From: Methanofervidicoccus abyssi
Lineage (GTDB): Archaea; AGJL01; Methanococci; Methanococcales; Methanococcaceae
Length of the DNA stretch: 64,000 nt
Direction: 5' to 3'
Assembly: GCF_004310395.1 (NCBI RefSeq)
Contig: NZ_BFAX01000003.1
Location: 115,333-179,332 of the forward strand
Shown here: piece by piece, positions 1,911-5,054 of the stretch
Layout: the number at the start of each line of letters is the position of its first letter
Numbering within the stretch: the stretch's first letter is position 1
Program-made: the position numbers and the translations under genes
The notes under the pieces: model-generated
What the model saw: only the letters and a program-made list of their open reading frames with translations
Databases searched by the model: none
Told to the model about the DNA's origin: nothing

Positions 1911-3083
1911 ATGATGTGGAAAAAGATATTGCCAATAATATTTGGTTTAATGATGCTGGCAGTCCCAGTAACCTTCAAGCCAGTCAGTGCGGCAGATACT
2001 ACAGTAGTAATTCTGGTGAGCGACAATGAAGCTGATTGTGCACTGGCAAACTATCTTGCAAACTTAACAGCCAATGTAGTGGTAGTTAAGACACCATGGG
2101 GAATTTATGATCCAAATATAACTGCAAAAATAATCAGTTATGCTCCCGCTGAAGTAATTATCATTGGTGGACCAGTTGCAGTTCCAGATGAATACGTTGA
2201 AGACCTGCAAAACCTGGGCATCACAGTCGAGAGATGGTGGGGGGAAAACAGGTATGAAACAGACTTAGCAGTAATCAAGAACGCTACAGAGAAGTTCCAG
2301 CTCCAGTTGCAAAACAGAGTTATCCTTGTGGCAGGTACAGACTTAGCAGGAATTGAAAAAGCATTACAGCTTGCAATTCAGAAGAGAGCAATGATAATCT
2401 TAGTAAACCAGACTACAAATATTACAAAAATAATGGATAGGTTAAGAATAAGAACAGAGAATTTTACAATAGTGGAAACACCGGTTATGAACCAAACAAT
2501 GCTCATGATACAGAAACAACTTAAGGAACACCTCAAAGAATGTAACTGTACAAAAGTTCAAGTTAATATGACCGCTGAGAGAGCTCTTGAAGCAATACAA
2601 ATGGCCGAGGAAAAGATAAACGCAGCAAAAGAACTAGCTGAAAATGCAACAAATCCAGCCATTGATAACATACTTACAACTGCGGAGAAGCAGCTTGAAG
2701 ATGCAAAAGATGCGTATAATACTGGAAAATATGGCCTGGCTTATGGCCTTGCACTGGCTGCAAAGTCGAAGGCAGAAGTCGTCGTTAGGCTTGCTGGAGA
2801 AGACATTAGAAAGATGATAATGAACAACACAAAGATGAGACTGGAAAGAGAGCTTGTAAGAGTTGAAGCGCAGATTAGAGTTATGGAGAGGTTAGGTGTC
2901 AACATGACAACAGCACTGCAGTTAATGGAGCAGATAAAGACAGCAATAAGGAATGGTGATTATGACACTGCCCAGGAGCTTATGGTTAAGTTAAAGGAAG
3001 AGATCAGGACATCTTACATGGGTAGTAGAGATATAATCAAAGAGAAATCCCATATACCAGTTAGAGGTAGAGGAAAGCCATAA
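1911..3083 (+). CDS. secreted protein with a CWB2-type cell-wall-binding domain
   Basis: 390 residues. A signal peptide spans residues 1-27, ending in PVSA. Residues about 30-130 match the cell wall binding repeat 2 family (PF04122): alternating beta strands, IIIGGPVAVPDEY near 83-95 and the ENRYETDLAVI signature near 112-122. There is one clear repeat, where bacterial proteins usually carry three. Residues about 185-350 are long amphipathic helices rich in Ala, Glu and Lys, likely coiled coil or a helical bundle, with several N-x-T/S sequons. Because Methanococcales lack peptidoglycan and pseudomurein, the domain probably attaches to the S-layer or another surface polymer. Start ATG 1911 follows AGAGGTGAT. 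It ends the accessory cluster on this strand. Confidence 0.75.
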   Translation: MMWKKILPIIFGLMMLAVPVTFKPVSAADTTVVILVSDNEADCALANYLANLTANVVVVKTPWGIYDPNITAKIISYAPAEVIIIGGPVAVPDEYVEDLQNLGITVERWWGENRYETDLAVIKNATEKFQLQLQNRVILVAGTDLAGIEKALQLAIQKRAMIILVNQTTNITKIMDRLRIRTENFTIVETPVMNQTMLMIQKQLKEHLKECNCTKVQVNMTAERALEAIQMAEEKINAAKELAENATNPAIDNILTTAEKQLEDAKDAYNTGKYGLAYGLALAAKSKAEVVVRLAGEDIRKMIMNNTKMRLERELVRVEAQIRVMERLGVNMTTALQLMEQIKTAIRNGDYDTAQELMVKLKEEIRTSYMGSRDIIKEKSHIPVRGRGKP

Positions 3084-3530: not shown

Positions 3531-5054
3531 TTAAGACTCTGCCATCTCCATTATTAGGGCTACATCCTTATAATCTATTATTCCGTTGTTATCCATATCA
3601 AGCCTTTTTTCATCGTCATTTGTTGCTATTTTACCAACATACTGGTTTAATGTTATGTAAGCATCATCTAAGTCGATCCTATAGTTTCCATTGGCATCTC
3701 CCTTTATAACGCCAACTCCATTTGTAATTATCATTCTATCTCCGCCAAATAACATTAAATCGGCAATTTCTTTACTTGTATCTACATGGTGCCTAAATCC
3801 TCTAAAGTGCTCTGCTCCAGGACCGTATGCCATGATAGGAACTGGAACTCCAGTATGTTTGTGGGATACAAATCTTACTCCTACCTTTTCACTGATAATC
3901 TCTCCTATGGCATTTCCAAGGGCATATTTATTATCAGATTTCATGGCATCTTCAATTTTCTTGACTTCCTCATCTGTTAAGTCCAATCCAGTGTATTTTT
4001 TAATAACTTCCTTTGGATCCCCTCCATTCTCTATTTCTTTTGCCATTGTTTCAGTGGAGGCCTTGATATTGAGTATTTCCTTCTCATCTATTGGATCTCC
4101 ATAATCTATTCCAACCCCTAATCCTCCAGTTTCATGATCTGCAAGGACTATTACTAAGGTATTTTTATTTTTTCTTGCGTAATCGAGACAGTAGCCTACA
4201 ACTTCATCAAATTCCTTAGTTTCTGCTACAACAGAGGCAATATCATTGCCATGGGCTGCATGATCTATTCTTCCCCCCTCTACCATTAAGAAGAAACCCT
4301 TATCTGAATCCTTTTCCAATAACTCTATGGCCTTCTTTGTCATCTCCAATAATCCCACAGTTTTATTATCTCTATCCAATACATAGGGTATGTGGCTATC
4401 GGCAAATAATCCTAAAACATACTTTCCATTGGCACTTTCCAACCCTTCTCTAGTATATACTACTTCATATCCATTTTTCTTGGCTAATTTTAATATATCA
4501 TCACTAAATTTTTCCTTACCTCCCCCAAATAATACATTGACCTTTTCCTCTATTAATTGACGTGCTATTTCTTCTTCCATACTTCTTTTTTCTACGTGGG
4601 ATGCAAACACTGCTGGGGTAGCATGGGTTATCCTTGTAGTGGTTACCAATCCAGTTGCTTTACCACTGCATTTAGCCAATTCTAAAAGGGAAGTCACATT
4701 TACTAATTTATCATTAACTTTTACAGTAGATATCATTCCATTGTAGGTTTTAAATCCTGTAGCTATGGCAGTTCCTGCCGCTGCAGAATCTGTTACTGGA
4801 CCACTTAATGAATCTGTAAGTTCATATCCCGTATAGGGCATATCCTCCATATTTAAATGTCCATAACATATCTTTGTTATCTCAATGTGAGCAAGTCCCA
4901 TACCATCTCCGATCAATATAATTACATTCTTTACTCCACCATTGGATTTAATAGTTATATCTTCCATGGCATAGTTTTTTGCCACACTTGCCTGGAATGC
5001 AATTAGGATAAATATTGTAAATAATACACCTAATATACCTATTTTTTTATTCAA
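3531..5054 (-). CDS. secreted alkaline phosphatase with a C-terminal dockerin-like domain
   Basis: 507 residues. A signal peptide spans about 1-25. The phosphomonoesterase domain (about 40-440) has the family motifs: metal ligand in LIGDGMG near D50, nucleophile Ser90 in TDSAAAGTA, E259/D264/H268 in VEGGRIDHAAH, D306-H307 in ADHETGG and H400 in HKHTG. The enzyme should release phosphate from organic monoesters outside the membrane. Residues about 450-507 hold two Ca-binding dockerin-type repeats (starting GDANGNYRIDLDDA and DMDNNGIIDYKD), which normally dock to cohesins. No cohesin gene is visible here. The gene is monocistronic with a TATA box at 5113-5121. pstB and phoU at 42640-44129 are other phosphate-uptake genes in the window. 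Confidence 0.93.
   Translation of the reverse strand: MNKKIGILGVLFTIFILIAFQASVAKNYAMEDITIKSNGGVKNVIILIGDGMGLAHIEITKICYGHLNMEDMPYTGYELTDSLSGPVTDSAAAGTAIATGFKTYNGMISTVKVNDKLVNVTSLLELAKCSGKATGLVTTTRITHATPAVFASHVEKRSMEEEIARQLIEEKVNVLFGGGKEKFSDDILKLAKKNGYEVVYTREGLESANGKYVLGLFADSHIPYVLDRDNKTVGLLEMTKKAIELLEKDSDKGFFLMVEGGRIDHAAHGNDIASVVAETKEFDEVVGYCLDYARKNKNTLVIVLADHETGGLGVGIDYGDPIDEKEILNIKASTETMAKEIENGGDPKEVIKKYTGLDLTDEEVKKIEDAMKSDNKYALGNAIGEIISEKVGVRFVSHKHTGVPVPIMAYGPGAEHFRGFRHHVDTSKEIADLMLFGGDRMIITNGVGVIKGDANGNYRIDLDDAYITLNQYVGKIATNDDEKRLDMDNNGIIDYKDVALIMEMAES

Follow-up and report, generated by a model that had tools for sequence, protein, structure and literature searches.

What cohesins and dockerins do outside cellulosomes is described as not known by Timmers et al. 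(2017; PMC5244752). The closest described systems come from ANME archaea: a section devoted to these domains reports ABC binding proteins with dockerins, scaffoldin-like proteins in which as many as five cohesins occur, and proteins that combine S-layer and dockerin domains (Chadwick et al., 2022; PMC9012536). Multi-cohesin scaffoldins are lacking in other archaea according to Peer et al. (2009), as cited in that section. Dockerin-bearing binding proteins (SBPs) are already published for ANME archaea, and the kind of system considered here is known. The non-cellulosomal cohesin of Archaeoglobus fulgidus (2xdh), also archaeal, has the same predicted fold as the Methanococcales cohesin modelled below (VIA-align Z 17.0, rmsd 1.8 over 123 residues) at 18% identity.

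The system of the Methanococcales resembles that of ANME archaea in its dockerins on ABC SBPs, its multi-cohesin proteins, and the presence of S-layer domains. As far as the ANME section goes, the S-layer domain accompanies dockerins in ANME-2c, whereas it accompanies cohesins in Methanococcales, and the binding proteins named are of the NikA/OppA and TroA types rather than the Peripla_BP_2 type; neither phosphatase cargo nor lipobox replacement appears in that section (PMC9012536). In the anchoring scaffoldins of clostridial cellulosomes, a cohesin is likewise fused to a surface module and holds dockerin-bearing proteins, but the cargo consists of polysaccharide hydrolases instead of a phosphatase and binding proteins, and the surface module is an SLH domain (a point found partly in PMC9012536 and partly general knowledge) instead of S_layer_C. 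Homologous phosphatases and SBPs of other Methanococcales presumably occupy the same location, held there by a predicted lipid-modified cysteine rather than a dockerin. A literature search covering few subscription papers returned no dockerin work on Methanococcales and no dockerin-bearing phosphatases, and no priority is claimed; cohesins bearing an S-layer module, a phosphatase as cargo, replacement of the lipobox, and multi-cohesin Methanococcales proteins did not appear in combination in the literature searched. The reading put forward here, which we hold to be probable with some reserve, is that a phosphatase would be tethered to the cell surface through a dockerin lodged in the cohesin of an S-layer-associated protein, the dockerin replacing a lipid anchor in lineages with cohesins.

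The window analysed is a stretch of 64,000 nucleotides from Methanofervidicoccus abyssi (contig NZ_BFAX01000003.1), whose genome comprises 1.31 Mb in five contigs. It encodes the phosphatase with the following features.

3531..5054 (-): whole ORF, TTG start, 507 aa; alkaline phosphatase ending in a dockerin
4980..5054 (-): residues 1-25, hydrophobic, taken for an ordinary signal peptide that has no lipobox cysteine; boundary set by eye
3765..4931 (-): alkaline phosphatase domain, residues 42-430, PF00245 E 1.7e-83
3534..3704 (-): dockerin tail, residues 451-507, 57 residues
3663..3698 (-): calcium loop 1, DANGNYRIDLDD, 12 residues, from residue 453
3564..3599 (-): calcium loop 2, DMDNNGIIDYKD, 12 residues, from residue 486

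The protein contains VTDSAAAG, RIDHAAH, and ADHETGG, which we take to be the catalytic motifs of alkaline phosphatase. Its best solved relative is 3a52, a cold-active alkaline phosphatase (E 6e-64), and its nearest named matches, 79-89% identical, come from Methanothermococcus single-cell genomes and MAGs. Signal peptides and lipoboxes were called by eye or by pattern, without a signal-peptide program. The ORF at 1911-3083 (+), convergent with the phosphatase, looks secreted and may encode a further surface protein: it has a CW_binding_2 match (1.7e-6) and, overlapping it, a weak one to S_layer_C (0.0025). Upstream on the same strand lies a tandem partial duplication (765-1046 and 1224-1865), in which a 93-aa ORF repeats almost exactly the first ~91 residues of the next ORF, a membrane protein of 213 aa.

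A dockerin consists of two duplicated calcium loops with ligands at positions 1, 3, 5, 9, and 12. All 11 tailed orthologues have the two loops complete. Shuffling the 62-residue tail 200000 times produced such a pair 6 times, and among the 257 stop-to-stop frames of at least 60 aa in the window one contains it, the phosphatase ORF. The dockerin profile PF00404 aligns to residues 451-502 of the window protein (E 0.024) at 15.3 bits, below the cut-off of 22.9, a shortfall shared by the tails of G006 (21.9 bits) and G025 (20.7 bits). A generic EF-hand pair or a chance resemblance might produce such a score, and the PDB matches of a profile built from 10 tails do include EF-hand proteins. Four orthologous tails nevertheless pass the cut-off (G001 at 26.1 bits, G007 at 23.2, and G009 and G012 at 23.0, with their neighbours), and the 10-tail profile ranks dockerins first (2y3n_B, 6.7e-5; 2ccl_B, 8.9e-4; 1ohz_B, 0.002), with the EF-hand protein 1c7v just after them (0.0021). 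In VIA-align, a tail model of middling quality (pLDDT 71.7, pTM 0.57) returns dockerins in rows 1-19 at Z 5.3-2.4, the best at rmsd 1.9 over 47 residues, and EF-hand proteins at Z ~2. Foldseek with the same model gave nothing below E 0.27 and was uninformative. Together with the rarity of the loop pair among shuffles and its retention across 11 orthologues, these rankings leave an EF-hand or chance origin scarcely credible. The preliminary description had proposed an alkaline phosphatase with a dockerin-like tail of two calcium-binding repeats, and the calcium loops and profile searches confirm that tail as a genuine dockerin, with a dockerin-like model pointing the same way, even though the window protein itself misses the profile cut-off that four of its orthologues reach.

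The tail is not of the common type. An HMM of SBP dockerins scores it at 0.0 bits (best shuffled tail, 12.9), and the idea that all dockerins here form one class was dropped on that account. Compared profile to profile, phosphatase tails and SBP dockerins are weakly similar yet in register (probability 28%, E 6.4e-4). The phosphatase-tail profile retrieves phosphatases only, 11 of them plus a remnant in G002. Judged by these comparisons, the phosphatase tail is a dockerin class distinct from the SBP dockerins encoded beside cohesins. As the SBP-dockerin HMM does not see the tail and the tail's own profile finds phosphatases only, the partner is perhaps another cohesin or none.

If there is none, the tail might be a lineage-specific, dockerin-derived calcium module that stabilises the phosphatase or its dimer and has lost cohesin binding. 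The separate class and the phosphatase-only retrieval fit this reading, as do tailed phosphatases in two genomes where a search with the curated cohesin profile PF00963 found no match. One, in an Archaeoglobaceae MAG, is an alkaline phosphatase behind a calcineurin-like domain; the other, in Haloarcula pellucida, has a degenerate first calcium loop. The completeness of both loops in all 11 orthologues speaks against a loss of cohesin binding, and on the whole of the evidence given here and below we consider such a module rather unlikely, though a rival to be taken seriously.

In the 782-aa Archaeoglobaceae protein (L145:9038-11386), a calcineurin-like phosphoesterase and an alkaline phosphatase are fused to a dockerin-like tail. 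In G002 (L108:189-311), the dockerin tail is reduced to its last 37-41 residues, directly preceded by upstream flank sequence, as if a deletion had removed the phosphatase gene from its promoter as far as the tail. G009 and G012 are placed in different genera, and their phosphatases (L064 and L066) look identical where aligned, which suggests that the gene was transferred recently or that the classification is at fault. The contig with L209:2-145, titled Thermococcus paralvinellae, starts with a phosphatase tail of the Methanothermococcus type (88% identical) and is probably mis-binned.

The dockerin had been taken to imply a cohesin partner, and a search of the genome with PF00963 was proposed. 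That profile, which at E 0.1 matches 26 of 61 genomes, has no match in the window's genome at E values up to 1, a result overturned by a family-specific profile. At the end of contig C2, directly downstream of a dockerin-SBP, lies a gene whose product starts with a hydrophobic stretch and contains a cohesin-like domain, CARDB, and S_layer_C. Its cohesin-like domain aligns (up to E 1e-52) with proteins from the cohesin clusters of relatives, and some relatives in the same profile family pass PF00963. A profile of 31 cohesin sequences finds two intact ORFs in the window's genome (C2:226354-226758 and C3:974-1420, both among the 31 seeds) and one fragment (C2:224282-224584). Against solved structures, this profile matches 3l8q at 7.3e-11. 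An AlphaFold model of the cohesin domain (pLDDT 90.4) retrieves cohesins in Foldseek rows 1-37, the archaeal 2xdh among them, and cohesins with Z up to 18.0 in VIA-align. On profile and model evidence, the genome has predicted cohesins that the curated PF00963 model overlooks. Negatives from PF00963 are therefore weak, and those in the Archaeoglobaceae and Haloarcula genomes lend the stabilising calcium module correspondingly less.

Three dockerin proteins were found in the genome, the phosphatase and two SBPs. A cellulosome would carry dockerin-bearing polysaccharide hydrolases on a scaffoldin, and these three are other cargo; cohesin and dockerin proteins occur together in one genome without a cellulosome, as a non-cellulosomal cohesin-dockerin system. 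Contig C2 ends and contig C3 begins inside near-identical tandem ORFs with cohesin and S_layer_C (L061:11292-12570 and L084:2-2356), so that the boundary is probably an assembly break within a repeat; a third paralogue of the cohesin ORF begins before contig C3. Also on C2, a 101-aa ORF (L061:9166-9471, -) retains half a cohesin-like domain, the C-terminal one, and is perhaps the remnant of a small cohesin protein found there in relatives.

Both cohesin ORFs carry an identical 123-residue module (123/123) that contains S_layer_C. PF05124 matches the two at E 1.1e-10, covering only profile positions 108-172 of 177. The same module recurs on contig C4, on a calcineurin-like phosphoesterase (118/122 identical; L139:1-1785) and on another ORF (122/123 identical), and it is distantly similar (21/66) to the end of a 562-residue S-layer-type protein on C2. 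Its placement is suggested by the PF05124 family and by kinship with this S-layer-type protein: the module of the cohesin proteins probably sits in the S-layer. The calcineurin-like phosphoesterase, fused straight to the module, would correspond to the dockerin phosphatase but with direct anchoring. The implied cohesin partner thus exists as a predicted protein in the same genome, probably located at the S-layer.

Whether the phosphatase docks onto these particular cohesins is a separate matter. The tail might dock elsewhere, for example onto a cohesin encoded in the C2-C3 assembly gap or onto a cohesin of another cell. Its distinct class, the several cohesin classes of relatives, and the contigs that break within tandem cohesin genes are all compatible with such a partner, whereas the genome-wide profile search yields just the two intact ORFs and the fragment, and there is no sign of docking across cells; we regard a partner of this kind as distinctly improbable. 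Docking onto the S-layer-associated cohesins is the reading retained below.

The preliminary description expected such domains to be absent from this organism; for this clade that expectation is wrong. A cluster that recurs in relatives encodes a dockerin-SBP and a protein of 760-1350 aa with 2-5 cohesin-like domains, with further cohesin proteins nearby. Those multi-cohesin proteins that were scanned carry CARDB and S_layer_C in G004 and G011, and CARDB and beta-helix repeats in G007, where the tailed phosphatase is encoded ~8 kb from the cohesin cluster. Of the 36 genomes of the order surveyed (G000-G035), 25 have cohesins and 25 have SBP-type dockerins. The two coincide in 24 genomes and are both missing from 10 (p 4.6e-7), the two discordant genomes being G001 (64% complete), with a cohesin only, and G019, with a dockerin-SBP and no cohesin found by the family-specific profile. 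Profiles A2 and A4 were built partly from genomes later searched, and a recount with the 13 seed genomes of either profile removed gives 11/1/1/10 (p 1.1e-4); among genomes at least 90% complete it is 19/0/1/7 (p 9.0e-6). These p values are indicative only, since related genomes are not independent. Tailed phosphatases are accompanied by cohesins in 10 of 11 genomes, an association that argues against the calcium module and is by itself non-significant (Fisher p 0.12). The exception, G008, keeps an intact phosphatase tail with no cohesin found by the family-specific profile, as expected of a tail that no longer binds one.

The survey of SBPs covers 67 ORFs of the Peripla_BP_2 type, with matches in 33 of the 36 genomes. 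They were screened with a general lipobox pattern; the pattern was widened by allowing proline at -2, and one G024 protein (L234) thereby changed from unflagged to flagged. In cohesin-bearing genomes, 44 ORFs carry a dockerin and no lipobox, some of them interrupted by stops. In the cohesin-less genomes G024, G027, G028, G029, and G033, 10 ORFs (two each) carry a lipobox and no dockerin. One further dockerin ORF is that of G019, a genome without a cohesin found. Outside these groups stand 12 ORFs, comprising seven partial ones (six dockerin-less, one with a dockerin), one (G005) without a visible start region, and four without a visible signal peptide. In Methanococcales, the dockerin would thus be an alternative to the lipoprotein anchor, used in lineages with S-layer cohesins, while cohesin-less lineages use the lipobox.

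The phosphatases show a similar exchange. By eye, a lipobox-like cysteine is present in 0 of 10 tailed phosphatases with a readable start (the eleventh is partial) and in 4 of 4 dockerin-less phosphatases of the order (one each in G014 and G031, two in G034); a fifth, more distant dockerin-less phosphatase from outside the order (G058) lacks one. The four dockerin-less phosphatases from within the order are complete as enzymes, which together with their lipobox-like cysteines indicates that the tail trades with an anchor, contrary to a role in stabilising the enzyme. The genomes of these four lipobox phosphatases hold cohesins, so the phosphatase swap does not track cohesin presence.

In the proposed mechanism, the phosphatase would be exported via its plain signal peptide; its dockerin would fold with calcium and then plug into the cohesin of an S-layer-associated protein, and the docked enzyme would release phosphate near membrane transporters. 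The SBPs would follow the same docking principle instead of using a lipid anchor. Dockerins sit on SBPs in lineages that have cohesin/S-layer anchors, and in one clade on the phosphatase too. The sequences themselves show the domain identities, the joining of cohesin to an S-layer module, the gene linkage, the co-occurrence, and the anchor swap. The most conjectural step is the binding of the phosphatase's divergent dockerin to these cohesins, ahead of export and of placement in the S-layer. A broader proposal, on which we are evenly divided, is that the cohesin-dockerin pair serves in Methanococcales as an interchangeable substitute for the lipoprotein anchoring of nutrient-acquisition proteins: where S-layer cohesins are present, SBPs, and in one clade the phosphatase through a second dockerin specificity, would trade the lipobox for a dockerin and form a non-covalent, calcium-dependent scavenging array tethered to the S-layer.

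Archaea that lack an outer membrane need a way to retain the enzymes and binding proteins they secrete. Those studied here probably keep nutrient-gathering proteins at the surface by plug-and-socket domains rather than lipid anchors. Methanococcales includes cultured, genetically tractable species. Orthologues whose anchor, dockerin or lipobox, follows the presence of S-layer cohesins would make non-cellulosomal cohesin/dockerin function directly testable. The second dockerin-SBP of the M. abyssi genome (L062:7787-9067, -) adjoins a 1226-aa ORF that by eye resembles the cobaltochelatase CobN, hinting at cobalt or corrinoid cargo.
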